Positions 16,101 through 63,405 of a DNA stretch of 64,000 nucleotides are shown piece by piece. Below the pieces are notes generated by a model, which was given only the letters and a program-made list of their open reading frames with translations, searched no databases and had not been told where the DNA came from. Where the stretch lies: the NCBI GenBank assembly GCA_030680415.1, contig JAUXVE010000015.1:1-64000 (forward strand), written 5' to 3'. The stretch is from Rubrivivax sp. Its GTDB lineage: Bacteria; Pseudomonadota; Gammaproteobacteria; Burkholderiales; Burkholderiaceae_C. The translations under genes and the position numbers were made by a program. Every line of letters begins with the position of its first letter. Position 1 is the first letter of the stretch.

Positions 16101-19100
16101 AGCCGAAGGCGAGGCCGGCCTGCTCGGCACGCTCAAGCGCATGTGGATCGGGCCGACGCTGGCGCTGACCACCTTCGTCGCCCTGGCCACCTATCGCCCG
16201 CTGACGCTGGCGTTCGCCACGCCGGTGCTGGCGTTGTGGCTGCTGTCGCCGCTGATCGTCTGGTGGATCAGCCGGCCGCTGCAGCGGCCGTTGCCGACGC
16301 TGAACGCCGAGCAGACCCTCTTCCTGCGCCTGTTGAGCCGCCGCACCTGGGCCTTCTTCGAGACCTACGTCGGGCCGGCCGACCACTTCCTGCCGCCCGA
16401 CAACGTGCAGGAACATCCGGTCGAACGCATCGCGCGCCGCACCTCGCCCACCAACATCGGGCTGTCGCTGCTGTCCAGCCTGGCGGCCTACGACTTCGGT
16501 TACCTCACTCTCGGCCAGTTGATCGAGCGCACGAACGCCACGCTGAACACGATGGACCGGCTGCAGAGATACGAGGGCCACTTCCTCAACTGGTACGACA
16601 CGCAGACCTTGCAGCCATTGGTGCCCGCCTACGTCTCCACGGTGGACAGCGGCAACCTGGCCGGCCACCTGCTGACGCTGCGCGCCGGCCTGCACCTGCT
16701 CGCGGACGAGCTGCCGCAACCGGCGCGGCTGTTCGACGGCCTGAGCGATACGGCGGGCCTGCTGGAAGAGGCGAGCGGGAACGCCCCGCGGGGCTCGGCG
16801 CTGGCCCGCTTCACGGCGCTGTTGAACCAGGCCCTGGTGCGGCCGCCGCAGACACCGGCCGCGCTGGGCAGGGCGTTCGACGCGCTGGCCGGCTGTGCGG
16901 CGGACGTGGTCGACGAGGTGGCCGCCGCGCCGCCCCCTGGCACGGTGGCGGGCATGCCCGACGACGCCGATGCAAAGGCGCATGCCGATGCACTGCACTG
17001 GGCAAACGCCTTGCGGGCGCAATGCGCTGCCGCCGTCGCCGAACTGCGCCTGCTGTCGCCCGACCACCTCGCGCCCGGCCCTGCGGCCGACGCTGCGGCG
17101 GGATGGAACGGCGCGGCGCTGCGGGACCGCAGCGCCGCGCTGCGCGGCCTGGCCGACCGCAGCGGCGATCTGGCCCGCAAGGAATACGGCTTCCTCTATG
17201 ACCCGGCGCGCCATCTGATGGCCATCGGCTACAACGTCGACGAGCACCGCCGCGACTCGGGCTACTACGACTTGCTGGCCTCCGAAGTTCGCCTGACCAG
17301 CTTCACCGCCATCGCGCAGGGCCAGGTGCCGCAGGCAAACTGGTTCGCCCTCGGCCGCCTGCTCACCACGGTCAATGGCGACGCCCTGCTGCTGTCGTGG
17401 AGCGGCTCGATGTTCGAGTACCTGATGCCGATGCTGGTGATGCCGAGCTACGACAACACACTGCTGCACCAGACCATGCGCACCGCCGTCGACTGCCAGA
17501 TCCGCTACGGACGCCAGCGCGGTGTGCCCTGGGGCATGTCCGAATCGGGCTACAACGCCACCGATGCCCACTTGAACTACCAGTACCGCGCCTTCGGCGT
17601 ACCCGGTCTGGGCCTCAAGCGCGGGCTGGCCGAGGACCTGGTGGTGGCGCCGTACGCCAGCATGATGGCGCTGATGATCGAACCGCGGGCCGCCGTGCAG
17701 AACCTGCAGCGCCTGGCCGACGAAGGCCTGGCCGGCACCTTCGGCTACCACGAGGCGATCGACTACACGCCGTCGCGCCTGCCACGCGGCCAGGCCAGCG
17801 CGATCGTGCGTTCGTACATGGCGCACCACCAGGGCATGGGCCTGCTCGCGCTGGCCTACCTGCTGCTCGAGCAGCCGATGCAGCGCCGCTTCCAGGCCGA
17901 CCCCGCGTTCCAGGCCACGCTGCTGCTGCTGCAGGAACGCGTGCCGAAGGCGCTGCCCTTCCACGCCCACACCGCCGACCGGGCCGAGATGCGCACCGGC
18001 CTCGGCGCCGCCGAGCCGCCGCTGCACCTCATCAAGACCGCCGACACCCCGGCACCCGAGGTGCAGTTGCTGTCCAACGGCCGTTATCACGTCATGCTGA
18101 CGAATGCCGGTGGCGGCGTCAGCCGCTGGAAGGACCTGGCCGTCACGCGCTGGCGCGAGGACCCGACCTGCGACGAGTCGGGCAGCTTCTGTTACCTGCG
18201 CGACACCGAGACCGGCACCTTCTGGTCGACGACCCACCAGCCGACGCAGTGGAAGCCGGACTCCTACGAGGCCATCTTCTCCGAGGGACGGGCCGAGTTC
18301 CGCCGCCGCGACCAGGGCATCGATGCCTACACCGAGATCGTCGTCTCGCCGGAAGACGACATCGAGCTGCGGCGGCTGCGCATCACCAACCGAGGTCGCA
18401 CGCGGCGCAGCATCGAGGTCACCAGCTATGCGGAGCTGGTGATCGCGCCGGCGCCGGCGGACGCGCAGCACCCGGCGTTCAGCAAGCTGTTCGTGCAGAC
18501 GGAATGGCTGGCCGAGCCGGCGGCGCTGCTGTGCACACGCCGGCCGCGCTCGGCCGACGAACAGCCGCCACACATGCTGCACCTGCTGACGGTGCACGGC
18601 GCCCAGGCCGGAGCGGTGTCGCACGAAACCGACCGCGCGCGCTTCATCGGCCGCGGCCGCAGCCTGCATGCGCCGCAGGCGCTGCGCGAGGGCGGCCCGC
18701 TGTCGGGCAGCGCAGGATCGGTGCTCGACCCGGTGGCGGCAACGCGGCGCGTCATCACGCTGGAACCCGAGCAGACCGCGATCATCGACATCGTCTACGG
18801 CATGGCCGACACCCGCGACGCCTGCCTGGCGCTGGCGCACAAGTACGTCGACCGGCGGCTGGCCGACCGCGTGTTCGACCTCGCCTGGACGCACAGCCAG
18901 GTCATCCTGCGCCAGATCAACGCCAGCGAGTCCGACGCGCAGCTCTACGCGCGGCTGGCCAGTGCGGTGGTCTATGCACAGCCGACCCTGCGCGCCGATG
19001 CTCAGACGCTGCTGCGCAATCGGCGCAGCCAATCGGGGCTGTGGGGCTACGCCATCTCGGGCGACCTGCCCATCGTGCTGCTGCGGGTGAGTGAAGCCGC

Positions 19101-21963
19101 CCACATCGACCTCGTCAGGCAGATGGTGCAGGCGCACGCCTGGTGGCGTCTGAAGGGTCTGGCGGTCGACCTCGTGATCTGGAACGAGGAGCGCGACGTC
19201 TACCGCCAGCGGCTGCAGGAGCAGATCCTCGGGCTCATTGCCTCCGGCATCGAGGCGCACGTGATCGACCGCCCGGGCGGCATCTTCGTGCGCCACGCCG
19301 AGCAGATCGCCGGCGCGGACCGCGACCTGCTGCAGGCGGTGGCCCGCGTCATCATCGACGACCGGCAGGGATCGCTGCAGCAGCAGGTGTCGCGCAAGGC
19401 GATCGTGCCGCGGCGGGGCGCGCTGCTCGAGCCCACGCGCGCCGCCGAACTTGCGCGCTCCGGACCGCCACTGGTGGACCCGCGCGAGTTGCGCATGTAC
19501 AACGGCTTCGGTGGCTACTCTGCCGATGGACGCGAATACGTCATCGCGCCGCCCGCCGGGCAGCGCCCCCCGGCGCCCTGGGTCAACGTGCTGGCCAACC
19601 CGCGCTTCGGCACCGTGGTGTCCGAAGCGGGCAGCGCCTACACCTGGTGCGAGAACGCGCACGAGTTGCGCCTCACGCCGTGGCACAACGACCCCGTTTC
19701 CGACCTTGGTGGCGAGGTCATCTACCTGCGCGACGAAGAGAGCGGCCAGTTCTGGCACCCGACTTCGCTGCCCGCCACCGGCGACGAGCGCGACGAGCGC
19801 GACGCCGGCCCCTACCTGACGCGCCACGGCTTCGGCTACAGCGTGTTCGAGCACGACGCGGCGGGCATCCACAGCACGTTGACGGTCTTCGTGGCGATGG
19901 ACGCTGCGGTGAAGTTCTCGGTCCTCGAGCTGCGCAACGACAGTGGTCGCACACGCCAGCTGTCGGCCACCGGCTATGTCGAATGGGTGCTCGGCGACCA
20001 GAGGGCGAAGACCGGGCTGCACATCGGTACCGAGATCGCTGCCGACAACGCTGCGCTGTATGCCCGCAACCCGTTCAGCAACGACTTCGGCGACTGGGTC
20101 GGCTTCTTCGATGTCGACGAACGCGAGCGCCTGTTCAGCACCATCACCTGCGACCGCACCGAATTCATCGGCCGCAACGGGTCGCTGCGCAGCCCGGCCG
20201 CGTTGCGGCGCACGCGGCTGTCGGGCCGCACCGGTACCGCGCTGGACCCCTGCGCGGCGATCCAGGTGCCGTTCGAGCTGGCCCCCGGGCAGACGCGCGA
20301 GATCGTGTTCCGGCTCGGCATGGGCCGCAGCACCGACGAAGCGGACCAGCTGGTGCGCCGCTTCCGCGGCCACGACCCCATGCGCGAAGCGCTCGACACC
20401 GTGCACAGCCACTGGCAACACACGCTGGGTGCGGTGCAGGTGGACACGCCCGACCCGGCGCTGAACCTGCTGGCCAACGGCTGGCTCGTCTACCAGACGC
20501 TGGCCTGCCGCATGTGGGCGCGCAGCGGCTACTACCAGTCGGGCGGCGCCTACGGGTTCCGCGACCAGTTGCAGGACGCGACGGCGCTGGTGCACACGCG
20601 CCCGGCCCTGCTGCGCGAGCACCTGCTGCTCAGCGCCAGCCGGCAGTTCGTCGAGGGCGACGTGCAGCACTGGTGGCACCCGCCGTCGGGCCGCGGCGTG
20701 CGCACGCACATCTCCGACGACTACCTGTGGTTGCCGCTGGCGCTGTGCCGCTACGTGCACGCCACCAACGACACCGGCGTGCTGACCGAGAGCGTGCCCT
20801 TCCTGGACGGGCGGGCGGTGCCGCCGACCGACGAGTCCTACTACGACCTGCCGCTGCGCTCGGTGCATGCCGCCAGCCTGTACCAGCACGCGGTGCGCGC
20901 CGTCTTGCACGGCCTGCGCTTCGGCGCCCACGGCCTGCCGCTGATGGGCAGCGGCGACTGGAACGACGGCATGAACCAGGTCGGCCACCAGGGCCACGGT
21001 GAAAGCGTGTGGCTGGGCTTCTTCCTGTGCGAAGTGCTGCGCCAGTTTGCCGTGCTGGCGCGCCGCCATAGCGACGACGCCTTCGCCCGCCGGTGCGACG
21101 ACGAACGCACGCAACTGGCCGTCCGGCTCGAGGCCAGCGCGTGGGACGGCGACTGGTACCGCCGCGCCTACTTCGACGACGGCACGCCGCTGGGTTCGAA
21201 GGACAACGCCGAATGCCAGATCGATTCGATCGCGCAGAGCTGGGCCGTGCTGTCGGGCGTCGGCGACGCGCAGCGCGTCCAGCGGGCGATGGACGCGGTG
21301 GCGGCGCGGCTGGTGCGGCCCGAGGCCGGCCTGGTGCAGCTGCTCGACCCGCCGTTCGACCGCCGCGGCCCCAATCCCGGCTACATCGCCGGCTACGTGC
21401 CCGGCGTGCGCGAGAACGGCGGCCAGTACACGCACAGCGCGGTGTGGGCGGCGATGGCCTACGCCGCGCTCGGCGATGCGCCCCGCGCCTGGCAGCTGAT
21501 GGACCTCATCAACCCGCTGCACCACGGCCGCACGGCAGCCGAAGTGGCGGTCTACAAGGTCGAACCCTATGTCGTCGCGGCCGACGTCTACAGCGTGGCG
21601 CCGCACACCGGCCGCGGCGGCTGGAGCTGGTACACGGGTTCGGCCGGGTGGATGTACCGGCTGGTCATCGAGTCACTGCTGGGCCTTCAGCTCGAGGTCA
21701 ATGAGGACGGCGCCCTGCTGCACGTGCGCCCCTGCATTCCGGCCGACTGGCCGGGTTACACGGTCGCCTATCGTTTCCGCGACACCTTGTACCAGTTGCA
21801 GGTGGAGCCGGCGGACGTCGCCGAAGTGAGCGTCGACGGCGTCGTGCATGCAGGCAGCGCAGTTCCGCTGCTCGACGACGGCGGCACGCACGAAGCGCTC
21901 GTGCGCCTGGCGCGGCCGCGAACGCCAACTGCCGCGGCACCCGAAGTGGCGGCGATGAAGTGA
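13180..21963 (+). CDS. ndvB: Cyclic beta-1,2-glucan synthase (NdvB/Cgs type)
   Basis: About 2927 residues, the expected size for Cgs/NdvB. Two hydrophobic pairs near nucleotides 14460-14640 and 15770-15870 flank the GT84 glycosyltransferase domain. That domain carries LDTDTQLPRD (about 15130) and RRHRWIRGDWQ (about 15575). A glycoamylase-like domain follows, with GTFGYHEAIDYTPSRLP and VRSYMAHHQGMGLL (about 17740-17860). Two GH94 phosphorylase-like modules come next, and the second carries GSGDWNDGMNQVG (about 20950) with the general-acid Asp. The enzyme initiates, elongates, trims and cyclises osmoregulated beta-1,2-glucans at the inner membrane. GGAGG at 13162-13166 precedes a GTG at 13171 and an ATG at 13180; the ATG is used here, but the GTG is possible. 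No glucan exporter (ndvA) is in the window. Confidence 0.94.
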   Translation: MNRLWTLVRSWVGQPGPFGTLPGAAASADEAPLRAELFTADQMAQHGKSLAAAHELTFARARDRLLPRLAANEKVLVSVWARLMRNAQQQHRVTPAGEWLLDNFYLIEEEIRTAKRHLPPGYSRELPRLRGGPSAGLPRVYDLALQTVAHGDGRLSRGTLTRFVASYQSVKALKLGELWAIPIMLRLALIENLRRVAVRMAVASSEHELANVWADRMLEVVEKDPKGLILVIADMARSNPPLTGPFVAELARRLQGRSAALALPLTWVEQGLAESNLTVEQLVQLEAQHQATDQVSVSNSIGSLRTLGAMDWREFVESLSMVEQALQRDPADVYAYMDFATRDTYRHAVERLARTSPLPEADVATAAVDLAAATLAVGSAATSPQAHVGHYLIGAGQAALERVAQVRVSRWRRLCRAAARHPLRLYTGSIGVLTLLFSMGVVTWATHGLEGPFTAVPPGWWLLPVGATLLLAASQLAVTLTNWSASLLATPRLLPRMDYEFGIPPEMRTLVVVPTMLGSEQGIEDLAEQLEVRFLANRDAHLHFGLLTDFHDAASATVADDDKLLRLATAKIEALNSKYDAPGNGARFFLFHRPRLWNASERVWMGYERKRGKLADLNALLRGRASAGPGERFSLIVGDPSPLREVRYVITLDTDTQLPRDVASQFVATMAHPLNRPRLGGAPEAPRVVGGYGILQPRVGLSLPGANRSHYARLFGGDFGIDPYTRAVSDVYQDLFGEGSFVGKGIYDVDAFEHVLGDRLPENRVLSHDLLEGCYARCGLVSDMQVVEDPPARYDADVSRRHRWIRGDWQVIGWLMPRLRVPVAELAADGSTSKRLVWLKNPLSALSRLKIADNLRRSLTPAALSVLFLLGWSVLEPPWVWTLAGVAILFVPPLAALLVDLLRKPQALRLRQHLASVVPATGRQLGQATLSLACLPYEAAFSLDAVARTVARLWFTRRRLLEWQSSSEVARRVAAEGEAGLLGTLKRMWIGPTLALTTFVALATYRPLTLAFATPVLALWLLSPLIVWWISRPLQRPLPTLNAEQTLFLRLLSRRTWAFFETYVGPADHFLPPDNVQEHPVERIARRTSPTNIGLSLLSSLAAYDFGYLTLGQLIERTNATLNTMDRLQRYEGHFLNWYDTQTLQPLVPAYVSTVDSGNLAGHLLTLRAGLHLLADELPQPARLFDGLSDTAGLLEEASGNAPRGSALARFTALLNQALVRPPQTPAALGRAFDALAGCAADVVDEVAAAPPPGTVAGMPDDADAKAHADALHWANALRAQCAAAVAELRLLSPDHLAPGPAADAAAGWNGAALRDRSAALRGLADRSGDLARKEYGFLYDPARHLMAIGYNVDEHRRDSGYYDLLASEVRLTSFTAIAQGQVPQANWFALGRLLTTVNGDALLLSWSGSMFEYLMPMLVMPSYDNTLLHQTMRTAVDCQIRYGRQRGVPWGMSESGYNATDAHLNYQYRAFGVPGLGLKRGLAEDLVVAPYASMMALMIEPRAAVQNLQRLADEGLAGTFGYHEAIDYTPSRLPRGQASAIVRSYMAHHQGMGLLALAYLLLEQPMQRRFQADPAFQATLLLLQERVPKALPFHAHTADRAEMRTGLGAAEPPLHLIKTADTPAPEVQLLSNGRYHVMLTNAGGGVSRWKDLAVTRWREDPTCDESGSFCYLRDTETGTFWSTTHQPTQWKPDSYEAIFSEGRAEFRRRDQGIDAYTEIVVSPEDDIELRRLRITNRGRTRRSIEVTSYAELVIAPAPADAQHPAFSKLFVQTEWLAEPAALLCTRRPRSADEQPPHMLHLLTVHGAQAGAVSHETDRARFIGRGRSLHAPQALREGGPLSGSAGSVLDPVAATRRVITLEPEQTAIIDIVYGMADTRDACLALAHKYVDRRLADRVFDLAWTHSQVILRQINASESDAQLYARLASAVVYAQPTLRADAQTLLRNRRSQSGLWGYAISGDLPIVLLRVSEAAHIDLVRQMVQAHAWWRLKGLAVDLVIWNEERDVYRQRLQEQILGLIASGIEAHVIDRPGGIFVRHAEQIAGADRDLLQAVARVIIDDRQGSLQQQVSRKAIVPRRGALLEPTRAAELARSGPPLVDPRELRMYNGFGGYSADGREYVIAPPAGQRPPAPWVNVLANPRFGTVVSEAGSAYTWCENAHELRLTPWHNDPVSDLGGEVIYLRDEESGQFWHPTSLPATGDERDERDAGPYLTRHGFGYSVFEHDAAGIHSTLTVFVAMDAAVKFSVLELRNDSGRTRQLSATGYVEWVLGDQRAKTGLHIGTEIAADNAALYARNPFSNDFGDWVGFFDVDERERLFSTITCDRTEFIGRNGSLRSPAALRRTRLSGRTGTALDPCAAIQVPFELAPGQTREIVFRLGMGRSTDEADQLVRRFRGHDPMREALDTVHSHWQHTLGAVQVDTPDPALNLLANGWLVYQTLACRMWARSGYYQSGGAYGFRDQLQDATALVHTRPALLREHLLLSASRQFVEGDVQHWWHPPSGRGVRTHISDDYLWLPLALCRYVHATNDTGVLTESVPFLDGRAVPPTDESYYDLPLRSVHAASLYQHAVRAVLHGLRFGAHGLPLMGSGDWNDGMNQVGHQGHGESVWLGFFLCEVLRQFAVLARRHSDDAFARRCDDERTQLAVRLEASAWDGDWYRRAYFDDGTPLGSKDNAECQIDSIAQSWAVLSGVGDAQRVQRAMDAVAARLVRPEAGLVQLLDPPFDRRGPNPGYIAGYVPGVRENGGQYTHSAVWAAMAYAALGDAPRAWQLMDLINPLHHGRTAAEVAVYKVEPYVVAADVYSVAPHTGRGGWSWYTGSAGWMYRLVIESLLGLQLEVNEDGALLHVRPCIPADWPGYTVAYRFRDTLYQLQVEPADVAEVSVDGVVHAGSAVPLLDDGGTHEALVRLARPRTPTAAAPEVAAMK

Positions 21964-53786: not shown

Positions 53787-53905
53787 GGGTCGGCGGCGGC
53801 CATCGGCCCCGTATCTATCGCGTCGCTCGGATGTCCGATTGATCGGGCGCAACTGCAGTGCGTCCCGACTTTGCGATCGTTGGCAATCGAAGAAAGGCGT
53901 GTGCA

Positions 53906-54607
53906 GTGCTCGAATGCCACGATATCGATGTCCGGCGCCGCACCGCGATCGCGCGTGCGTTCGCCGCCATCGGCGGTTTGACCATTCTGCCCGGCTTCGC
54001 CAGGCCCGCGACCAGCGGGGTTCTGGCGGCGCCGGACAGGGTCGGTGGCCTGCCGCTCGAACAGGCGCTGGCGCGGCGCCGCTCGGTGCGGCGCTACGCC
54101 GCCCAGCCGCTGGCACTGGCCGCGGTGTCGCAACTGCTCTGGGCGGCGCAGGGGACGACCGGCTTCGGTGGCCGGCGCACCGCGCCATCGGCCGGCGCTC
54201 TCTATCCGCTCGAACTCCGCCTGGTGGCGACACGGGTCGAAGGCCTGGTCGCGGGCGGGCATCGCTACCTGCCGGCCACGCACGCGCTGCTGTTCTCCAG
54301 CGCGGAGGTCACGGCGTCGGACCTGCAGCAAGCTGCGATGGGGCAACAGGCCGTCGGTGTGGCCGCCGTGGTCGTCGTCATCACGGCCGTCGAGGCGCGC
54401 ACTGCAGGCAGGTACGGCGCGAAGGCCGCTCGCTATGTCGCGTTCGAGGCCGGCGCGGCGTCGCAGAACCTGGCGCTGCAGGCAGCCGCCCTCGGGCTCG
54501 GGACGGTCGTCATCGGTGGCTTCGACGAAGCCGCGCTTGCCCGGGCACTGCGCCTGCCGCCCGGCGAGCAGCCCATCGCGCTGATGCCCATCGGCGTGCC
54601 CGCCTGA
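53906..54607 (+). CDS. SagB/ThcOx-type nitroreductase-family protein with Tat-like leader
   Basis: About 233 residues from a GTG at 53906; a GTG at 53858 is also possible, so the start is uncertain. The leader VRRRTAIARAFAAIGGLTIL resembles a Tat signal. The flavin domain has LARRRSVRRYAAQPLALAAV, LLWAAQGTTGFGGRRTAPSA, GALYPLELRLVATRV and the closing GLGTVVIGGFDEAALARALR. SagB-type enzymes use FMN, often to oxidise azolines to azoles, but stand-alone members have no known substrate. No peptide-modification partner is nearby. Confidence 0.82.
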   Translation: MLECHDIDVRRRTAIARAFAAIGGLTILPGFARPATSGVLAAPDRVGGLPLEQALARRRSVRRYAAQPLALAAVSQLLWAAQGTTGFGGRRTAPSAGALYPLELRLVATRVEGLVAGGHRYLPATHALLFSSAEVTASDLQQAAMGQQAVGVAAVVVVITAVEARTAGRYGAKAARYVAFEAGAASQNLALQAAALGLGTVVIGGFDEAALARALRLPPGEQPIALMPIGVPA

Positions 54608-54710: not shown

Positions 54711-55241
54711 CTACGATCCGCCAGCCTTGCCCTGCCAGCGCCGAACCGCACCGAGAATCCCGCGCAGGATCTCGATCGGCGGCGGCGGGCATCCGGGCAC
54801 GGTGGCATCGACCGGAATCACGTTGGCAACCCTGCCGCAACTGGCATAGCTCTCGCCGAAGATGCCGCCGCTACATCCGCAATCGCCCACCGCGACCACC
54901 AGCTTGGGCTCGGGCGTCGCGTCGTAGGTGCGGCGCAGCGCCTCTTCCATGTGGCGCGACACCGGTCCGGTCACCAGCAGCATGTCGGCATGGCGCGGGC
55001 TGGCGACGAACTTGATGCCGTAGCCCTCGATGTTGTAGTAGGGGTTGTCGAGGGCGTGGATTTCCAGCTCGCAGCCATTGCACGACCCGGCATCGACCTG
55101 GCGGATGGTCAACGCCTGGCCGAGGATGTCCAGGACGTCCTGGTGTATGCGCTGGATCGCCGCACTGTCGCCTTCGGCAACGCGCGGGGCCGGCTCGGTG
55201 ACGATGCCGGTGCGGACGATCTGCTTGAGGATGTGCCACAT
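54711..55241 (-). CDS. Ehr complex small subunit (NuoB/HyfI-like)
   Basis: 176 residues. The ligands of one 4Fe-4S cluster are C54 and C57 (SCNGCE), C121 or C123 (GDCGCSGGIFG) and C151 (VPGCPPPP). The CxxC spacing is hydrogenase-like rather than the CC of true NuoB. DNPYYNIEGYGIKFVASPRH and VTGPVSRHMEEAL match HyfI/EchC-type subunits. It should pass electrons at the junction of the peripheral arm with the membrane arm. It is the last gene of the operon and its ATG overlaps the stop of the large-subunit gene by one base. Confidence 0.9.
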   Translation of the reverse strand: MWHILKQIVRTGIVTEPAPRVAEGDSAAIQRIHQDVLDILGQALTIRQVDAGSCNGCELEIHALDNPYYNIEGYGIKFVASPRHADMLLVTGPVSRHMEEALRRTYDATPEPKLVVAVGDCGCSGGIFGESYASCGRVANVIPVDATVPGCPPPPIEILRGILGAVRRWQGKAGGS

Positions 55242-56791
55242 CAGAGGTCGTGCCCCGAATAGCTCAAGTTGAACGATTTGTTGATGAGCGGAAAGTCCGG
55301 CACGATGTTGCCCATGACGGCGTGTTCGAGCACCGGCCAGTTCTGCCACGAAGGATCGTGGCAGTGGCAGCGCACGATGCGGCCGTCGGCAGCGGTTTCC
55401 AGCGCGACCAGGATCTCGCCGCGCCAGCCTTCCACCCAGCCGGCGCCACGGACCTGGCGTTGCGGGGCCTTGAGCTCGAAGCCGCACTCGCCATAGGGCA
55501 GGCCGGCGCAGAGCTCACGGATCAAACGCAGCGACTCGAGCACTTCGTCGAAGCGCACGGCCACGCGCGCCGCCACGTCGCCGGCTTCCTGCGCCGCGAT
55601 GCGGGCCTGCAGCCGCGCGTAGGGCTGCCAGTCGTGGGCGCAGCGCAGATCGCTGGCCTGGCCGCTCGCACGACCGGCCAGCCCCGTGAGCCCGAGCCGG
55701 GCCGCCAGTGCGGGCGTGACGCGGCCGGTGGTCAGGAAGCGGTCCTGCAGCCCGGCGTGTTCGTCGTAGACCTGCCGCAGGCGGCGGACCTCGCGCTCGA
55801 CATCGTCGCACTGGCGGCGCTGCGCGTCGCGCTGCGGCATCTGCAGATTGACGGCCACACCGCCCGGCACCACCATGTCCATCAGCAGGCGATGGCCGAA
55901 AACGTCCTTCGACAGACGCTGCCAGTCCTCGCGCAGGCGCGAGAACTGCGCCAGCCCGAAAGCCAACGCGGCATCGTTGCCCAGGGCACCGAGATCGCCC
56001 AGGTGGTTGGCCACGCGTTCGCGTTCCAGCATCAGCGCGCGCAGCCACTGCGCACGCTCCGGCACCACGCATTCCCAGGCCGACTCGAGCGCCATGCAAT
56101 ACGCCCAGGCATAGGCCACGGTCGAGTCACCCGAGACCCGGCCGGCGAGGCGGTGGCCGTCCAGTGGCGGCAGTTCGGTGAAGCGCCGCTCGATGCCCTT
56201 GTGCACATAGCCCAGTTGCTCTTCCAGACGCAGCACCTTCTCGCCGGCCACCGAAAAGCGAAAGTGCCCCGGTTCGATGATGCCGGCGTGCACCGGGCCG
56301 ACGGCGATTTCATGCACACCGTCGCCTTCGACGCGCACGAACGCGTAGTCGGCGGGCAAGGTGCCGGCGCCGGCGGGCTGGGGGTCTGCGTCGTGCTGCA
56401 GCGGCGCCCGGCCCGGCGCCCACAGGCCGTGGTCGAGCCAGGGCCGCTGGTCGTGGCTGCCCTGGGCTTGCAGGCCGGACAGGTCGGCCATGGCGCGCTG
56501 CATGCGGCCGGCGCAGGGGAACACGGGCGCGAGGTCGGGGAAGCCCTGGGTCGGGTCGTCGATCGCCAGTTCGAGCCAGACCAGTCCTTCGGGCACGGCG
56601 TATGCGGCGCAGGCCGCGATGCCCCCGGCCGCAGCTTCGCGGTCGCTGCCCCACATCGACACCAGGCGCCCGCCCTGTTCCGCGACGGCGCGGGCCGCCG
56701 CGGCCCAGCTGTCGCGATCCACCGGCCCGTGCCAGATGGGCAAGGGCGCCGGCAGGCGTTGCAGGTCGAGTCCGAGGTCCGCCAGCGCCAT
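55241..56791 (-). CDS. Ehr complex large subunit (NuoCD/HyfG-like) without NiFe ligands
   Basis: 516 residues: a NuoC-like part (about 1-145) fused to the NuoD/hydrogenase-large-subunit part. GPVHAGIIEPGHFRFSVAGE and LGYVHKGIERRFTELPPLDG are the conserved openings. The N-terminal hydrogenase signature RxCGxC is R218-V-S-G-D-S here, and the C-terminal DPCxxC is D479-P-S-W-Q-N. All four Cys that bind nickel and iron are therefore missing, so it cannot be a hydrogenase. That defines the Ehr group (energy-converting-hydrogenase-related complexes), whose substrate is unknown. Confidence 0.9.
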   Translation of the reverse strand: MALADLGLDLQRLPAPLPIWHGPVDRDSWAAAARAVAEQGGRLVSMWGSDREAAAGGIAACAAYAVPEGLVWLELAIDDPTQGFPDLAPVFPCAGRMQRAMADLSGLQAQGSHDQRPWLDHGLWAPGRAPLQHDADPQPAGAGTLPADYAFVRVEGDGVHEIAVGPVHAGIIEPGHFRFSVAGEKVLRLEEQLGYVHKGIERRFTELPPLDGHRLAGRVSGDSTVAYAWAYCMALESAWECVVPERAQWLRALMLERERVANHLGDLGALGNDAALAFGLAQFSRLREDWQRLSKDVFGHRLLMDMVVPGGVAVNLQMPQRDAQRRQCDDVEREVRRLRQVYDEHAGLQDRFLTTGRVTPALAARLGLTGLAGRASGQASDLRCAHDWQPYARLQARIAAQEAGDVAARVAVRFDEVLESLRLIRELCAGLPYGECGFELKAPQRQVRGAGWVEGWRGEILVALETAADGRIVRCHCHDPSWQNWPVLEHAVMGNIVPDFPLINKSFNLSYSGHDL

Positions 56792-56795
56792 GGTG

Positions 56796-58265
56796 TCAGT
56801 GCGCCAGCATCGCCGCTGCCTGCCGGTACCAGGCGTCCAGGTAGGGCGGGATGTACAGACCCAGCATGAGGCCCAGCGCCAGGTGAACGAAGACGGGAAT
56901 CAGCGCCGGCGGGTGCGCCAGCGGCTTGACGTTGGTTTCGCCGAAGACCATCGGTTGCACGCGGCTGAACACCGAGGCAAAGGCCACGCCGAGCGCGATC
57001 AGCAGGAAGGGCGTGGCCCAGGGTTGATCACGCATCGCGGTGGTGACGATCAGGAACTCGCTGGCGAAGACGCCGAACGGCGGCATGCCCAGGATCGCCA
57101 GCGCCCCCAGCATCAGCCCCCAGCCGACCGTGGGGCTGACCTTGATGAGGCCGCGGATGCCGTCCATGATCTGCGTGCCGGCCTTCTGCGTGGCGTGGCC
57201 GACGGCAAAGAAGATCGCCGACTTGATGAGCGAGTGCACCGTCATGTGCAGCAGACCGGCGTAAGCGGCAATCGGCCCGCCCATGCCGAAGGCGAAGGTC
57301 ATCAGGCCCATGTGTTCGATGGACGAGTACGCGAACATGCGCTTGACGTCGCGCTGCCGGATCAGGAAGAACACCGCCGCCACCACCGACAACAGGCCGA
57401 AGCCCATCATCAGCCGGCCCGACAACTGGTTGCTGCCCAGGGCGCCGTCGGTCAGCACCTTGCAGCGCAGCACGGCATACAGCGCCACGTTGAGCAGCAG
57501 ACCCGACAGCACCGCCGACACCGGCGTCGGCCCTTCGGCGTGGGCGTCGGGGAGCCAGTTGTGCACCGGCACCAGTCCGACCTTGGTGCCGTAGCCGATG
57601 AACAGGAAGGCAAATGCCAGCGTGATGATGTTGGGGTCGAGCTGGCCCTTCACGGCGTCGAGGTTGGTCCACAGCAGGGCTCCGCCTGCGGAGCCGATGA
57701 CCTTCTCGGCCGCCATGTACAGCAGCACGGTACCGAACAGCGCCTGGGCGATGCCCACGCCGCACAGGATGAAGTACTTCCACGCCGCCTCCAGGCTGGC
57801 CGCCGTGCGGTAGACGCTGACCAGCAGCACGGTGGTCAGCGTCGCGGCTTCCATCGCGACCCAGAGCAGCCCCAAGTTGTTGGTCGTCAGCGCCAGCAGC
57901 ATCGTGAAGCTGAACAGCTGGTACATGCTGTGGTAAAGCCGCATGCGCGGCGGCGTCATCTTGCCGTGGTCGCGCTCGACCCGCATGTAGGGCCGCGAGA
58001 AGATCGACGTCGTCAGCCCGACGAAGGCCGTCAGCGTGACGAGGAAGACATTCAGCGCGTCGATGTAGAACTCGCTGTCCCACACCAGCATCGGCCCGCT
58101 CTCGATGATCCGCGCCGTCAGCACGCAGGCCGCGACGAAGGTGCCGAGGCTGAAGGCGACGTTGACATCGCGTGCGTTGTCGCGGTGGCCGACCAGAGCC
58201 AGCACCACGCCGCCGGCCAGTGGGCAGGCGAGCAGGAAGGCCAGCGGGTTCAGCTCCGAGATCAA
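56796..58265 (-). CDS. Ehr complex antiporter-like membrane subunit (HyfF/NuoN-like)
   Basis: 489 residues and about 14 transmembrane helices. Conserved ion-translocation motifs are visible: SRPYMRVERDHGKMTPPRMR, FIGYGTKVGLVPVHNWLPDA (with the key Lys), HAEGPTPVSAVLSGLLLNVA and AYSSIEHMGLMTFAFGMGG. The wording fits HyfF better than NuoL or NuoM. It lies four bases downstream of its operon predecessor's spacing pattern and just upstream of the large-subunit gene. It should form part of the proton- or sodium-translocating arm. Confidence 0.9.
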   Translation of the reverse strand: MISELNPLAFLLACPLAGGVVLALVGHRDNARDVNVAFSLGTFVAACVLTARIIESGPMLVWDSEFYIDALNVFLVTLTAFVGLTTSIFSRPYMRVERDHGKMTPPRMRLYHSMYQLFSFTMLLALTTNNLGLLWVAMEAATLTTVLLVSVYRTAASLEAAWKYFILCGVGIAQALFGTVLLYMAAEKVIGSAGGALLWTNLDAVKGQLDPNIITLAFAFLFIGYGTKVGLVPVHNWLPDAHAEGPTPVSAVLSGLLLNVALYAVLRCKVLTDGALGSNQLSGRLMMGFGLLSVVAAVFFLIRQRDVKRMFAYSSIEHMGLMTFAFGMGGPIAAYAGLLHMTVHSLIKSAIFFAVGHATQKAGTQIMDGIRGLIKVSPTVGWGLMLGALAILGMPPFGVFASEFLIVTTAMRDQPWATPFLLIALGVAFASVFSRVQPMVFGETNVKPLAHPPALIPVFVHLALGLMLGLYIPPYLDAWYRQAAAMLAH

Positions 58266-58266
58266 T

Positions 58267-58926
58267 TCATTCCTCTTTCAGCTTTTCGAGGTGGCGGATG
58301 TCCAGGCTGTCGAACTGCTCGCGGATCTGGAACATGAACACGCCCAGGATCAGCACGCCGATCAGCACGTCCAGCGCGATGCCGAGTTCGACCACCATCG
58401 GCATGCCGTAGGTGGCCGAGGTGGCGGCGAAGAAGAGGCCGTTTTCCATGGCCAGGAAGCCGATCACCTGCGGCACCGCCTTGGCGCGTGTGATCATCAT
58501 CAGGAACGACAGCAGCACGCACGCCAGCGCGATGCCCAGCGTGCCGCTGGCCAGTGCCGACGACAGCTGCGAGATCGGTATCGCCAGGTTGAAGGCGAAG
58601 ATCACGACACCGATGCCGATGAGCATGGTGGTCGGAATGTTGATCAGCGTCTCGACGTCCCAGCGTATGCCCAGGCGGTCGATCACGCGGTGCAGCAGAT
58701 AGGGAATCAGCAGCACCTTCAACAGGAATGTCAGCCCCGCCGACAGGTACAGGTGGTGCTGTTCCGTGACGTAGCCGACCACCGCCGTGGCCAGCGCCAG
58801 CGTCGCGCCCTGCGCCGTGAACAGATAGATCAGCGACAGGATGCGACGCTGCGAGATCATCGCGAACGCCAGCATCAGCAGCATCGCGCCGAGCAGGTTG
58901 ACGAACTGGGTCAGCAACTCGCTCAT
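58267..58926 (-). CDS. Ehr complex membrane subunit (HyfE/NuoK-like)
   Basis: 219 residues, with six or seven hydrophobic helices; the first half is NuoK-like. LLTQFVNLLGAMLLMLAFAM and RRILSLIYLFTAQGATLALA begin it. TRAKAVPQVIGFLAMENGLF carries the conserved Glu in a helix. LGIALDVLIGVLILGVFMFQ is near the end. The ATG overlaps the stop of the HyfC-like gene, and the next gene begins one base after its own stop codon. Confidence 0.9.
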   Translation of the reverse strand: MSELLTQFVNLLGAMLLMLAFAMISQRRILSLIYLFTAQGATLALATAVVGYVTEQHHLYLSAGLTFLLKVLLIPYLLHRVIDRLGIRWDVETLINIPTTMLIGIGVVIFAFNLAIPISQLSSALASGTLGIALACVLLSFLMMITRAKAVPQVIGFLAMENGLFFAATSATYGMPMVVELGIALDVLIGVLILGVFMFQIREQFDSLDIRHLEKLKEE

Positions 58927-59870
58927 TGGTTCAGCAGCAAGTGCACCAGCATGGCCAGCACCGAGAACAGGAAAGCAGTGCCCAGGAATTCGGGCACCCG
59001 GAAGATGCGCATCTTGGCGCTGACGGTCTCCAGCAAGGCCAGCAGGAAGCCGCCCAGGGCCAGCTTGCCCACCAACGCCGGCAGCGCCAGCAGCATGATC
59101 AGCGGTTCGTTGGCGCTGGCCACGCCCCAGGGGAAAAACAAGGCCAGGCCGATGCACGAGTAGGCAAACAGCTTCAGGCTCGCCGCCCACTCGATCAAGG
59201 CCAGGTGGCGCCCGGAATACTCGAGGATGAGCGCCTCGTGGATCATCGTCAGCTCCAGGTGCGTGGTGGGGTTGTCCACCGGCACGCGGGCGTTCTCGGC
59301 CAGCGCCACCATGGCGAACGCGACGCCGGCGAAGGCCAGCCCCGGGTAGATCACCAGCTCGCGGTACGCCAGCGTCTCGACGATGGTGGTCAGCGATGTC
59401 GAGTTGGAGATCAACGAGGCCGAAAACAGCACCATCAGCAGCGCCGGTTCGGCCAGGAAGCCGATCAGCATCTCGCGCCGCGCACCCAGGGTGCCGAAAG
59501 CGGTGCCGATGTCCATGGCGGCCAGCGAGATGAAGACGCGCGCCAGCGCGAACAGGCCGACGAGCGCAATGGCATCGGCGGCCGGCGCCAGCGGCAGGTC
59601 GGTCGACAGCGTGGGGATGATCGAACACGCCAGCACCATGCAGCCGAACATGACGTAGGGTGCGGTGCGGAACAGCCGCGACGCATGGTCGGCAACCATC
59701 GACTCCTTGTTGAACAGCTTGTGCAGCATGCGGTAGGGCTGCCACAGGCTGGGCGCCGACTTGTTCTGCAGCCAGGCCCGCCACTGGTTGACCCAGCCCG
59801 TGAGCAACGGCGCCAGCGCGATGGCGATCACGATCTCCAGCAGCTGCGACAGCGCTCCCGTGAAGCTCAT
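58923..59870 (-). CDS. Ehr complex membrane subunit (HyfC/NuoH-like)
   Basis: 315 residues with eight hydrophobic helices. PLLTGWVNQWRAWLQNKSAP, SLWQPYRMLHKLFNKESMVA and the NuoH-type loop AENARVPVDNPTTHLELTMI with EALILEYSGRHLALIEWAAS are diagnostic. In complex I the equivalent subunit links the peripheral arm to the membrane arm and lines the quinone cavity. The acidic residues of these loops are retained. ATGA overlaps join it to the genes on both sides. Confidence 0.92.
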   Translation of the reverse strand: MSFTGALSQLLEIVIAIALAPLLTGWVNQWRAWLQNKSAPSLWQPYRMLHKLFNKESMVADHASRLFRTAPYVMFGCMVLACSIIPTLSTDLPLAPAADAIALVGLFALARVFISLAAMDIGTAFGTLGARREMLIGFLAEPALLMVLFSASLISNSTSLTTIVETLAYRELVIYPGLAFAGVAFAMVALAENARVPVDNPTTHLELTMIHEALILEYSGRHLALIEWAASLKLFAYSCIGLALFFPWGVASANEPLIMLLALPALVGKLALGGFLLALLETVSAKMRIFRVPEFLGTAFLFSVLAMLVHLLLNQ

Positions 59871-61891
59871 GCCATCACCGCCAGCAAGGTGGCCACCAGG
59901 GTCAGGAAGCTGTACAGCAGATAGACCGCGATGCGGCCCTGCTGCAGCAGGCCCATCAGGCGGGCCAGGTAATTGGCCAGATCCATGGTCGGCACATAGA
60001 TCCAGCGCCAGAAGTGGTCGTCGATCTTGACGCGATAGTGCGGCTGGGCATCGAAGGGGGACGGCAGTTCACGGCGCATGACGAAGAACGGCTCGAAGAT
60101 CTGGCGGATGGGCTGGCCGAAGCCTTCGGCGGTGTCCTGCATGCGCGCCGTGCCCCAGGGGAAACCGCAAGCCCAGGGCAGGCCGCGCCGCATGCGGCCG
60201 TGGTAGAGCCCCCTTACCAGCCCGTAGGCCAGCGCAAAACAGGCCAGGATGCCGAGCAGGAAGATGACCGGGCCGTAGCTCGCCTGCTGCTGGCTGCCGG
60301 GTGCCAGCAGCCAGCCGCTGGCCGCCACCCGCTCACCCAGCCCGGCGTGGACGAGTTGCTGCGTCACGGGGTCGATGAGCTGGATGAACTGCACCGGCAG
60401 CAGGCCGAGTGCCACACAGCCGAGCGCGAGCCACACCATGCCCGTGCGCTCCCAGCGGCCGGCGTCGCGCGCCTGCGCGAGCTTGTCCTCGCGCGGCTGC
60501 CCCAGGAAGATGACGCCGAAGAACTTGACCATGACGTAGCCGGCCAGCGCCGCCACCAGGGCAATGACTGCCGCCACCACCGGGATCAGCATCGTCAGCA
60601 GCGGCACCGGCAGGCCGGTGGTGAACAGAAAGCTCTGCAACAGCAGCCATTCCGACACGAAACCGCCCAGCGGCGGCAGGCCGGCGCTGGCCAGCACGCC
60701 CAGCAGCATGAGCCAGCCGACCCAGGGCATGGTGCGGATCAGCCCGCCGAGCTTGCCCAGGTTGCGCTCGGAGGTGGCGTGCAGAACGCTGCCCGTGCCC
60801 AGGAACAGCAGGCTCTTGAAGCAGGCATGGCTGGCCACGTGGTACAGCGTCGCTGTCAGCGACAGCGCTGCCATCGGCAGCATGTCGTAGCCGGTGAAGA
60901 TCAGCGTCAGGCCCATGCCGACGAACAGCAGGCCCATGTTCTCGATCGACGAGTAGGCCAGCAGGCGCTTCATGTCTGTCTGCACGGCGGCGAAGACGAC
61001 ACCGAACAGCGCCGTGGTCAGACCGAAGGCCAGCAACAGGCCGCCCCACCACCACAGGCGCAGGTGCAGCAGGTCGAGCGAGACGCGCAGCATGCCGTAG
61101 ATCGCGCAGTTGAGCATGACCCCGCTCATCAACGCCGAGACGGGCGACGGCGCTGCCGGGTGCGCTTCCGGCAGCCAGACGTGCAGCGGCAGGATGCCGG
61201 CCTTGGCACCGAAGCCGAGCACCGCCAGCAGGAAGCCCACCGAAGCCCAGAACGGCCCCAGGCTCTGCGCGCGCATGTTGGCGAAGGTGTAGTCGCCGGT
61301 GTTGGCCTGCAGCACACCGAAACACAGGAGGACGGCGATGGCGCCGATGTGCGCCATCGTGATGTAGAGGTAGCCGGCGCTGCGCACCTCGGGGATGCGG
61401 TGGTTGGCGGTGACGAGGAAGAACGACGACAGCGCCATCGTCTCCCACATCACCATGAACGCGTAGGCGTCGTCGGCCAGGATGACGCCCACCATGGCGG
61501 CCAGGAAGACGTGGTATTCCAGGCACAGCAGGCCCGGCGGCGTGCCCTCGCCCTTGCGGAAGTAGCCGGCGGCGAACGCCGAGATCCCCGCCGATGCGGC
61601 GCCGAGCACCATCAGGAAGTAGGCCGACAGGCTGTCCAGCCGCAGGTGGAAGGGCAGCGACGGCAGGCCGATCGGCAGCACGGCGACCTCGGGCGATTCC
61701 GGCAGGGCGCTCAGCGCAACGACGAACAGCACCAGCCCGACGAGGCCACCCAACGGAAACAGCAGCTGCGACACGAAGGTGAAGCGGCGCAGCGCAGCGG
61801 CGCCGGCGGCACCGATGGCCAACCACGCGGCCATGACCACCAGGATCCAGTCCAGGTGCAGCCAATGTGCGTCGGGCGGCAGCTCGGGCAT
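59867..61891 (-). CDS. Ehr complex antiporter-like membrane subunit (HyfB/NuoL-like)
   Basis: 674 residues, about 16 helices. The core motifs are VMWETMALSSFFLVTANHR (Glu in helix 5), GFGAKAGILPLHVWLPEAHP (Lys in helix 7), AAPSPVSALMSGVMLNCAIY and AYSSIENMGLLFVGMGLTLI. The C-terminal extension continues past residue 560, as in HyfB. It starts two bases after the stop codon of the ribbon-helix-helix gene, so the structural operon is transcribed and probably translated together with it. Confidence 0.92.
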   Translation of the reverse strand: MPELPPDAHWLHLDWILVVMAAWLAIGAAGAAALRRFTFVSQLLFPLGGLVGLVLFVVALSALPESPEVAVLPIGLPSLPFHLRLDSLSAYFLMVLGAASAGISAFAAGYFRKGEGTPPGLLCLEYHVFLAAMVGVILADDAYAFMVMWETMALSSFFLVTANHRIPEVRSAGYLYITMAHIGAIAVLLCFGVLQANTGDYTFANMRAQSLGPFWASVGFLLAVLGFGAKAGILPLHVWLPEAHPAAPSPVSALMSGVMLNCAIYGMLRVSLDLLHLRLWWWGGLLLAFGLTTALFGVVFAAVQTDMKRLLAYSSIENMGLLFVGMGLTLIFTGYDMLPMAALSLTATLYHVASHACFKSLLFLGTGSVLHATSERNLGKLGGLIRTMPWVGWLMLLGVLASAGLPPLGGFVSEWLLLQSFLFTTGLPVPLLTMLIPVVAAVIALVAALAGYVMVKFFGVIFLGQPREDKLAQARDAGRWERTGMVWLALGCVALGLLPVQFIQLIDPVTQQLVHAGLGERVAASGWLLAPGSQQQASYGPVIFLLGILACFALAYGLVRGLYHGRMRRGLPWACGFPWGTARMQDTAEGFGQPIRQIFEPFFVMRRELPSPFDAQPHYRVKIDDHFWRWIYVPTMDLANYLARLMGLLQQGRIAVYLLYSFLTLVATLLAVMA

Positions 61892-61893
61892 GT

Positions 61894-62178
61894 TCAGCGC
61901 TTGCGCCGCACCGCGTCGGCGTTCACGCGCCCGCGGGCTGCACCCTGCGGCCGACCCCGAACCCTGGCCGCCGGCGTGGCCGCTGTCCGCGGCGGCACGT
62001 CATCGTCGTCTGCGGTGCCGCCGGCCGCGTACCGAACCCCGTGATGCGCCAGGTAGTCACGGATCAACTGCCGCACCACCTGCGACGCGGTTCGATCCTG
62101 CCGCGCACACAGGCGCTCGAAGGCGGCCTTCTTGTTCGGGTCGATCAGCAGCGTCAGTCGCGCCGTCTTGGACTCCAT
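61894..62178 (-). CDS. Ribbon-helix-helix protein, first gene of the Ehr operon
   Basis: 94 residues. Residues 3-45 form a ribbon-helix-helix domain: TARLTLLIDPNKKAAFERLC with the beta strand, then RTASQVVRQLIRDYLAHHG. The rest is a low-complexity Arg/Asp-rich tail, probably disordered. It is a likely DNA-binding autoregulator; it is not accompanied by a toxin. Two bases separate it from the HyfB-like gene. Two GATGTG direct repeats, 11 bp apart, overlap its own promoter. GAGGTGAGGG ends a few bases before the ATG. Confidence 0.8.
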   Translation of the reverse strand: MESKTARLTLLIDPNKKAAFERLCARQDRTASQVVRQLIRDYLAHHGVRYAAGGTADDDDVPPRTAATPAARVRGRPQGAARGRVNADAVRRKR

Positions 62179-62206: not shown

Positions 62207-62249
62207 CACATCGCACGCACATCATACTCTCATGCCATATGGTTGACGA
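62207..62249 (-). promoter_or_regulatory. Ehr operon promoter with overlapping direct-repeat operator
   Basis: Read on the minus strand, TCGTCA (62249-62244) and TATGAT (62226-62221) have the sigma70 spacing of 17 bp; TATGAT matches the -10 consensus at five of six positions. Two copies of GATGTG (62223-62218 and 62212-62207) are spaced 11 bp, one helical turn, and overlap the -10 and start region. This is a natural site for the ribbon-helix-helix protein encoded just downstream. Confidence 0.6.
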
Positions 62250-63009
62250 GGCGCTGTCGGCGCAGCTCCTTGAGCGCCTCCGTGATCTGCGCAAAGCCTG
62301 CGAGCAACTGCTGGGCGGCTCCGCTGTCGAGGTTCTTCGGTCGCCGCACGACGCCGGCGCGACGGCTTTCGAAGGCCTGGCCCTTGCCGGCGAAGACGAT
62401 GCTGTTGCCGAGATCGACGCCGTCGACGATGAACACCGAATCATCGAAGCTGCGCCGGATGCGATCCACGAAGATCTCGAACCGCGCATGGCCATAGTGC
62501 AGGTTGACGACCATCATGCCGTCGGGCTGCAGCATCTCATGGCAGTCGTCGTAGAAGCGTTGTGAGCACAGGCGCGACGGCAGGCCGTCGCTGTCGAAAC
62601 CGTCCACCATCAACACGTCGCAGCGCGTGGCACGGTGGCGGACGAACTGCGCACCGTCGCTCCGCACCACGGTGAAGCGCTCGTCCTCAGGCGGCACGTG
62701 GAACTCGTCGCGCAGCGCGATGACGTGCGGGTTGATCTCGACGACCTGGATGCGTGAGTGCTTCAAGTGCCGGTAGCAGAACTTCGCCAGCGAGCCACCG
62801 CCCAGGCCGATCATGGCGATGTCCTTCGGCTCGGGATTGAACAGCAGAAATCCCATCATCGTGCGCGTGTATTCCAGGTCCAGCGCGTGCGGATCCTCGA
62901 TCTGCATGCGGCTCTGCATCTCGCTGATGGAGAAGTGCAGGGCCTTGGTGCTCGCACTCTCGTGCACGAACGGCTTGACGTGTCTTGCTGACTCTTGGCT
63001 GTCTGGCAT
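62230..63009 (-). CDS. Spermidine synthase-like methyltransferase-fold protein
   Basis: 259 residues from the ATG at 63009. The frame is open to an ATG at 63069 with GGAG in front, but that lies inside a malic-enzyme remnant. The fold elements are IAMIGLGGGSLAKFCYRHLK (glycine loop), IQVVEINPHVIALRDEFHVP, and DVLMVDGFDSDGLPSRLCSQ. The MRIEDP-like MQSRMQIEDPHALDLEYTRT opening matches the spermidine-synthase-like family. The catalytic Asp of true SpeE and polyamine-site residues are not certain, so the substrate is open. Its 3-prime end overlaps the probable Ehr promoter region. Confidence 0.82.
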   Translation of the reverse strand: MPDSQESARHVKPFVHESASTKALHFSISEMQSRMQIEDPHALDLEYTRTMMGFLLFNPEPKDIAMIGLGGGSLAKFCYRHLKHSRIQVVEINPHVIALRDEFHVPPEDERFTVVRSDGAQFVRHRATRCDVLMVDGFDSDGLPSRLCSQRFYDDCHEMLQPDGMMVVNLHYGHARFEIFVDRIRRSFDDSVFIVDGVDLGNSIVFAGKGQAFESRRAGVVRRPKNLDSGAAQQLLAGFAQITEALKELRRQRLVNHMA

Positions 63010-63055
63010 GGCGGGTGGCGTGCGGAATGGAGATGGGTCTGGAGGAAGGCAGGCC

Positions 63056-63405
63056 TCAACGCGTGGCATTGATCTCCGCGACGGTGAGCGCGGTCATGTT
63101 GACGATGCGGCGCTGCCGGTCCGGCAGCATCAGGCCGGCCATGCAGGCATAGACACCGACGTCGGCGCGATGTGCATCATCAGGCGCTGGTCCACGGGCC
63201 GGGGAGTGAGGTGGTCACGGCCGAAGGCCGTGGCCGCACCGGCATCGACCGGCGTCACCAGATCGGTCTGCTCGGCCAGGGCCAGATCGCGCTGCTTGGT
63301 CAGCTGCTTGGTGGCGTTGACGGCGATCCTGCCCAGCGGCGGGAACTCGGGGTGTTCGAGCGAGGCCTGGCGGAGCTCGGCGTCCTTGTCTTGTGGCGTG
63401 GTCAT
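63056..63405 (-). pseudogene. Malic enzyme remnant with two internal deletions
   Basis: The ATG at 63405 begins MTTPQDKDAELRQASLEHPE and GRIAVNATKQLTKQRDLALA, the opening of NADP-malic enzyme (MaeB type). It then jumps to FGRDHLTPRPVDQRLMMHIAP, which belongs about 300 residues further on. Finally, in another frame, comes RRIVNMTALTVAEINATR with the stop at 63056, resembling the C-terminal end. Almost the whole catalytic part and the phosphotransacetylase-like domain are absent. Only about 115 of roughly 760 residues remain. Confidence 0.68.

Follow-up and report, generated by a model that had tools for sequence, protein, structure and literature searches.

Sequence analysis of an Ehr-type complex in Rubrivivax predicts a lost NiFe site and a rebuilt active-site pocket

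Complexes of the Ehr type are built around large and small subunits homologous to those of group 4 hydrogenases, in which the large subunit lacks the cysteine (Cys) ligands of the NiFe site, and their operons also encode membrane subunits like those of complex I and Hyf, namely Mrp antiporter-like and NuoH-like proteins (PMC4378227, PMC10284858, PMC10432482, PMC7304191, PMC7894505). They have been reported in many bacteria and archaea, and the original prediction for the locus described here had noted that no reaction is assigned to them. Their function is indeed unsettled in print: published papers state outright that it is unknown (PMC4378227, PMC10284858), as is the benefit to the host (PMC10432482), hold that the complexes are likely unable to interact with H2 (PMC7304191), and propose a link with formate without a test of it (PMC6349859, PMC7894505). 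A solved complex I-type relative without a NiFe site is MBS, the sulfane sulfur reductase of Pyrococcus furiosus (6u8y), in which the NiFe centre has been lost yet energy is conserved; features of its own are a ferredoxin-fed chain of three clusters, two retained NiFe Cys and a shortened Cys motif in MbsJ (PMC7684303). Here we analysed a stretch of 64,000 nucleotides (the window; positions 1 to 64,000 of contig JAUXVE010000015.1) from a Rubrivivax sp. genome, in which six genes, hyfB-C-E-F-G-I, were assigned with high confidence to an Ehr-type complex, kin of hydrogenase-4 and complex I and devoid of NiFe ligands. The operon Rv0082-Rv0087 of Mycobacterium tuberculosis is a six-gene relative.

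The six genes belong to a block on the minus strand (62178-54711) of seven close-set genes in the order RHH, hyfB, hyfC, hyfE, hyfF, hyfG and hyfI, where RHH denotes a ribbon-helix-helix gene. The spacings in this order are +2, -4, -4, +1, +4 and -1 bases, as expected from the earlier description of genes that overlap or lie 1-4 bases apart. The Pfam and NCBIfam matches likewise agree with the earlier naming of the subunits after HyfB, C, E, F, G and I of hydrogenase-4. The antiporter-like subunits HyfB (59867-61891, 674 residues) and HyfF (56796-58265, 489 residues from a called TTG start) scored 911.5 bits against PRK06521.1 (cut-off 667) and 914.2 bits against PRK06458.1-5 (cut-off 543), respectively. 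The NuoH-like HyfC (58923-59870, 315 residues) matched Pfam NADHdh (3.5e-33) and fell under the NCBIfam cut-off, as did the match of the membrane subunit HyfE (58267-58926, 219 residues) to PRK11492.1 (4e-25). HyfG (55241-56791, 516 residues) is a large subunit with fused NuoC- and NuoD-like parts (Pfam 30kDa domain, 6.1e-7; Complex1_49kDa, 1e-32), and HyfI (54711-55241, 176 residues) is the small subunit (Oxidored_q6, 2.5e-32). The best solved relative of HyfG is HycE of the Escherichia coli formate hydrogenlyase (FHL; 7z0s_E, E 4.1e-53), a chain also found by fold search with Foldseek (E 1.1e-25), and structure prediction from 31 aligned rows confirmed the fold (pTM 0.86); the nearest relatives of HyfI are MbhJ and HycG.

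The order B, C, E, F, G, I is shared with E. coli hydrogenase-4 and FHL (HyfG, HycE), of which HyfA, HyfD, HyfH, HyfJ and a maturation protease are missing from the operon, in line with the original prediction that HyfA, HyfH and maturation genes are absent. With complex I (NuoB, NuoCD, NuoH, NuoL/M) the complex shares the core fold, a proton path and the antiporter-like subunits, and differs from it in that the operon contains neither NuoEFG nor NuoI. Compared with the published Ehr complexes, this one is distinguished by its set of six genes, by a single predicted cluster and by the lack of a ferredoxin-like domain.

Alignment of HyfG with HycE placed both former NiFe motifs. The first reads R218 V S220 G D222 S223 (56123-56140, minus strand; RVCGIC in HycE), and the second N504 K505 S506 F N508 L S510 Y511 S G513 H D515 L516 (55244-55282, minus strand; IGSLDPCYSCTDR in HycE), so that the ligand Cys 241, 244, 531 and 534 of HycE correspond to S220, S223, S510 and G513. 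The stretch N508-L-S510-Y-S-G513, which aligns with D529-P-C531-Y-S-C534 of HycE, sits in the last nine residues of HyfG; the protein terminates three residues beyond it, at L516, without the C-terminal extension with which HycE continues. The original prediction had given the first motif as found here and had located the second at D479PSWQN, which is another stretch whose counterpart in HycE is AATYAN. Its claim that no NiFe site is present stands on the corrected motif, since the four Cys are absent from the window protein in this alignment, and we conclude from these residues that its HyfG has no NiFe site.

The separately assembled relative L016, 97% identical across residues 135-516, has the same residues in both motifs, which makes a sequencing error at these sites unlikely. 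The L016 fragment carries one in-frame stop, which does not fall at the motifs. Conservation was then read from two samples, using the labels type A to type D coined in this analysis. The first alignment has 95 rows drawn from 87 loci, each row an Ehr large subunit, 90 of type A and 5 of type B; the partial row L016 was dropped. The second sample holds 33 type-A rows out of 32 class genomes, each at most 66% identical to any row of the first. Cys occurs at positions 220, 223, 510 and 513 in 1, 1, 0 and 0 of the 95 rows, and in 3, 1, 0 and 0 of the 33. By contrast with this loss, D222, N504 and K505 are invariant in 95/95 type-A and type-B rows and in 33/33 rows of the second sample, and HycE, HyfG and NuoCD have none of D222, N504, K505 and I172. 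Six of the 16 near-invariant columns that are unlike HyfG, HycE and NuoCD fall within the 29 pocket columns among 367 (Fisher p 0.0007). In types C and D the residues at 222, 504 and 505 differ from those of type A.

The four missing ligands and the in-frame stop of L016 are what a decaying or mis-sequenced hydrogenase without function might show. Such a reading has to contend with the identical motif residues of an independent assembly, with three residues invariant across all 128 aligned rows, with hyfG evolving under purifying selection (dN/dS in four pairwise comparisons about 0.19 to 0.26) and with the six genes being called in order at 21/33 type-A loci of the distant second sample, the other 12 being contig-cut or mis-called. 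We consider decay hardly credible, and the former active site appears from these patterns to have been rebuilt rather than to have decayed.

The residues of the proton path and the canopy were defined in an FHL structure paper (PMC9474812), and the path can be followed in HyfG. E173, H263, R374, E416 and R457 are each present in 95/95 rows of the first sample; in the second, E173, H263, E416 and R457 are present in 33/33 rows, and position 374 is Arg in 24 and Lys in 9. This path, the membrane arm and the loop between transmembrane helices 5 and 6 (TMH5-6) of HyfC resemble complex I, in which the pocket of the NiFe site became a quinone pocket (PMC9474812). These likenesses would suit a quinone oxidoreductase in which a quinone sits in the former NiFe pocket in a way unlike complex I, a soluble carrier feeds the HyfI cluster and protons are pumped. 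However, the His and Tyr that bind the quinone headgroup in complex I are replaced by I172 (95/95 and 33/33 rows) and G221 (95/95 and 31/33 rows). The canopy Asp, described as strictly conserved across hydrogenases and complex I (PMC9474812), is also changed: its position is occupied by Asn508 in 90/90 type-A rows and 33/33 second-sample rows, by Asp in 5/5 type-B rows and by Gly in 6/6 type-C and 4/4 type-D rows, and a non-protonatable change there impairs quinone reduction in complex I (PMC9474812). A further difference from complex I lies in HyfI, which has the CxxC of hydrogenases (CNGC) and not the adjacent Cys of NuoB. Taken together, we regard a quinone oxidoreductase as rather unlikely.

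In HyfI, the four cluster Cys (54, 57, 121 and 151) are retained in 91/91 type-A rows scoring more than 150 bits to the window protein, which bears out the earlier statement that the small subunit keeps its Cys ligands. The length of the CNGC motif is that of MbhJ. One possibility is that, as in MBS, polysulfide or some other small molecule is reduced at the HyfI cluster itself. MBS, a relative with a solved structure, has lost part of its NiFe ligands and carries out polysulfide reduction at the proximal cluster (PMC7684303), and it is among the Foldseek matches of HyfG, at rank 35. In MBS, however, the small subunit has a Cys motif shortened by three residues, and one of the irons is without a Cys ligand (PMC7684303). 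Since HyfI retains the full CxxC and four Cys, catalysis of the MBS type at the cluster is less likely, and we judge it improbable. Two extra Cys of HyfI, C123 and C135 (54837-54875), lie by the cluster ligands and occur in 72/91 and 69/91 type-A rows, respectively; E. coli HyfI, HycG and NuoB have no Cys at these positions.

A scan of the six window proteins for Fe-S motifs found HyfI only, and HyfI contains no ferredoxin-like domain. A ferredoxin-like motif was likewise found in 0/31 type-A small subunits of the second sample, and such a motif was seen neither in the called genes of 29 type-A loci nor in annotated type-A neighbours; the ferredoxin-motif neighbour of the type-A operon in L089 is a type-B small subunit. 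In that type-B protein and in the type-C small subunit of L094, Pfam shows a fused ferredoxin-like part, and Cys motifs point to one in three further type-C small subunits. The four type-D proteins have a motif for one cluster at most. With a single Fe-S protein, no ferredoxin-like arm and no ferredoxin gene nearby, the electron route into the type-A complex would be short or absent.

The finding that HyfI alone of the six proteins has an Fe-S motif, along with the lack of a ferredoxin-like arm and of constant partner genes, would also fit a redox-gated ion channel or antiporter, in which the membrane arm would be gated by redox sensing at the HyfI cluster, with no substrate being turned over. 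Stress-type neighbours at some loci (universal stress protein, DUF1275/YoaK) could be read in the same way, but they recur in a minority of loci only. A channel would also leave unaccounted for a pocket and a proton path conserved in the fashion of an enzyme, and we hold it to be clearly unlikely.

The antiporter-like subunits HyfB and HyfF retain in the alignment the Glu of transmembrane helix (TM) 5, the Lys of TM7 and the Glu of TM12, these sites being placed by NuoM residue numbers. HyfC keeps the acidic TMH5-6 loop, with an insertion of three residues.

Based on these features, we tentatively favour, with confidence that is moderate to low, a reading in which the type-A Ehr complex would be a redox-driven ion pump that passes electrons from a soluble low-potential carrier through the HyfI cluster to a small acceptor other than H2 in the former NiFe pocket. 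Ferredoxin or flavodoxin would hand electrons directly to HyfI at its one predicted [4Fe-4S] cluster, and the acceptor would be bound and reduced in the pocket formed by D222, N504 and K505. The reaction may move two loops, beta1-beta2 in HyfG and TMH5-6 in HyfC, in the way proposed for MBS and complex I (PMC7684303), and H+ or Na+ would be pumped through HyfF and HyfB. A bolder form of the proposal, which we find rather unlikely as a whole, is that type-A Ehr represents a fourth catalytic solution of the complex I superfamily, after NiFe, quinone and sulfane sulfur, with an invariant Asp-Asn-Lys pocket and Asn in place of the canopy Asp, where a small molecule would be reduced or oxidised, and with ferredoxin or flavodoxin docking directly on a single-cluster small subunit. 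If true, such a complex would be the smallest redox-driven ion pump in the superfamily. The pocket residues that never vary, together with the absence of a ferredoxin arm, give definite positions to test in tractable soil bacteria when asking what Ehr does, a long-open question. It is sharpened by the corrected motif, by the invariant replacements, by the absence from type A of the ferredoxin arm found in types B and C, and by the failure to find a constant partner.

The host genome (167 contigs, 96% complete) encodes one type-A Ehr and two NuoD-like genes; contigs C73 and C75 hold two NuoD/NuoB-like pairs, possibly two complex I operons. A NiFe hydrogenase is encoded elsewhere, on contig C126, with one full-length large subunit whose best NCBIfam match is the E. 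coli Hya type, under the cut-off; C126 also has a partial PF00374 match. Only one M52 maturation protease was detected in the genome, on C126 at about 15 kb from this full-length hydrogenase, and the Ehr complex has no maturation genes of its own. Adjoining the C126 hydrogenase are genes for pyruvate:ferredoxin oxidoreductase (PFOR; 1730 bits, cut-off 911) and a dicluster ferredoxin (111 bits, cut-off 86). Because these two are encoded, the host likely has a pool of reduced ferredoxin. These genes show no positional link to the Ehr operon. No match to nifH was found in the host genome. As a separate observation, C126 carries in one stretch (L098:5467-17730) the subunits of an uptake-type NiFe hydrogenase, a flavoprotein, PFOR and the dicluster ferredoxin, the flavoprotein being above the cut-offs both for gltA (NADPH-dependent glutamate synthase) and for a sulfide/dihydroorotate dehydrogenase-like FAD/NAD-binding protein.

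Co-occurrence was assessed for six families in a draw of 274 class genomes, with p values that are uncorrected for phylogeny or for the six tests and with kin genomes that are not independent. The draw gave 35 matches, of which 34 are type A (host genome counted). PFOR was found in 14/34 type-A genomes against 33/240 others (p 0.0003), and nifH above the cut-off in 11/34 against 13/240 (p 2e-5), which gives a hint of low-potential electron metabolism and no more. RnfC (17/34 versus 138/240, p 0.46) and RuBisCO (19/34 versus 114/240, p 0.37) were not enriched. The alpha subunit of formate dehydrogenase was not enriched either (Fdh-alpha, 23/34 versus 142/240, p 0.45), a result that bears on whether the complex is fed by a formate dehydrogenase. 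A link of this kind has been proposed for other Ehr complexes, in Riflemargulisbacteria and in a discussion of Geobacter (PMC6349859, PMC7894505). For type A, however, no formate dehydrogenase gene was noted among the recurring neighbours or in the annotated loci, and the operon is without HyfA- and HyfH-like linkers, so we consider a formate dehydrogenase-fed complex very improbable.

Several observations weigh against the proposed ion pump. No constant partner gene was found in the first 81 loci or in the second sample, and the missing ferredoxin-like arm, through which relatives would receive electrons, could mean that the complex is not electron-fed at all. The replacement of the canopy Asp by Asn508 implies a changed chemistry of the pocket, and the HyfG model has pLDDT below 50 at residues 147-177 and 494-516, where the pocket geometry is unreliable. 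In the membrane arm, the TM8 Lys is Asn in both HyfB and HyfF; this Lys is present in HyfB of Rhizobium and B. pyrrocinia. As for the genomes, 15/34 of those with type A have neither PFOR nor nifH above the cut-off, and since NiFe hydrogenases are enriched as well (14/34 versus 38/240, p 0.0016), the enrichment may stem from lifestyle or kinship.

The complex is real and well conserved, and its type is widespread; Ehr complexes as such are already in print. A scan of GTDB species gave at least 542 relatives, of which the best 80 were kept, with the partial match G066 left out; in a protein search, 8000 candidates were scored and 120 listed, as the basis of three comparisons only. Type A is widespread, occurring in 34/274 class genomes as counted above. 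Relatives were also found in 215 plasmid records, 95 of them with at least 80% query coverage and the lower part of the matches being Nuo and Hyf proteins, and type A occurs on plasmids of Cupriavidus, Rhizobium, Azospirillum and Paraburkholderia. In a tree of 65 rows built by a quick method with the pocket columns excluded (L103, L104 and L105, which are host Nuo proteins, and L117 were dropped), the 60 rows without NiFe Cys formed one clade (SH-aLRT 94) versus three NiFe and two Nuo rows. The support for types A, B, C and D was 94, 100, 99 and 99, respectively. Long branches join at the root, and the rows include no published Ehr reference sequence, so the tree does not settle the published subgroup. 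A type-C Ehr with a DUF190/PII-like gene was observed in L094, on a plasmid typed as conjugative, amid genes for dynamin-like, CrcB and chloride channel proteins.

Neighbouring genes were called with a codon-model gene caller, which found no large subunit in L106, L109, L119, L122 and L144, where a six-frame search did. Among the first 81 loci, the genes of the block keep constant relative places, with F and G called at 79 loci each, I at 77, E at 72, C at 70 and B at 68. Families near the block recur in 27, 23, 17 and 16 of these loci, mostly on the opposite strand. Judged by eye, these families are housekeeping genes (scpA, nadB and metG among them), and we read them as a sign that the loci share a chromosomal neighbourhood. 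The sole recurring neighbour in the second sample is a helix-turn-helix (HTH) leader, at 8/40 loci. Some loci have near the Ehr block a gene for a spermidine-synthase-like protein, for DUF1275/YoaK or for a universal stress protein.

The leader of the window operon is the RHH gene (61894-62178, minus strand; CopG/RHH_9, 94 residues), which matches Pfam RHH_9 (5.3e-21) and stops 2 bases 5' of hyfB. To see how general this arrangement is, 121 loci were considered, of which 13 were too short and five had no hyfB, leaving 103 with hyfB and at least 800 bases upstream. Of the 103, 37 have a gene for a small DNA-binding protein no more than 800 bases ahead of hyfB, namely a co-directional RHH gene in 18 (window counted), a divergent RHH gene in 10 and an XRE-type HTH gene in nine; 66 loci have neither. 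The original prediction of an RHH-led complex thus holds for the window, whereas an RHH gene is near hyfB in only 28/103 loci, a minority of the relatives. We read this gene as a local, optional element, likely a regulator of the operon, and not as a defining part of the complex. Another RHH gene, similar in sequence to the leader, lies on the opposite strand about 3.5 kb upstream (L096:3647-3850). Control of hyfB by FNR/Anr was considered and set aside: the box TTGAYN4RTCAA, in a search for stringent sites only, occurs within 600 bases in 0/63 loci with at least 400 bases upstream, against a chance expectation of about 0.4 across all 63. A connection with the low-oxygen locus lxa of Burkholderia was set aside as well: neither the main text of PMC6127331 nor that of PMC3759415 contains the terms hydrogenase, spermidine, formate or hyf. 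The main text of a paper on Cupriavidus necator energy metabolism (PMC11540253) does not mention hyf, hydrogenase-4 or Ehr.

Directly upstream of the RHH gene is a spermidine-synthase-like gene (62230-63069), whose product scored under the aminopropyltransferase equivalog cut-offs and slightly above that of the fused major facilitator superfamily/spermidine synthase subfamily. Relatives of this gene stand beside some Ehr operons, with as many as three per locus (L087, L089). In L089, L054, L019 and L018 a type-B Ehr operon immediately precedes the type-A operon, and in three of these four tandem loci spermidine-synthase-like and RHH genes lie between the two. A literature search found no paper joining at least three of spermidine synthase, hydrogenase 4, YoaK, universal stress protein and ribbon-helix-helix.

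At the other end of the operon, a SagB-type nitroreductase gene (53858-54607) adjoins on the opposite strand; it was considered as a partner and rejected, having clustered with a gene from one other locus only. Past the end of the window, 8-18 kb from the Ehr operon, contig C137 carries two molybdopterin oxidoreductase genes (L096:8001-18566), both most like ArrA, under the curated cut-off, and both with partners that are by eye of the TorD and DmsB types. Elsewhere in the window, script-called on the plus strand, a single open reading frame of 2885 residues extends over 13306-21963.

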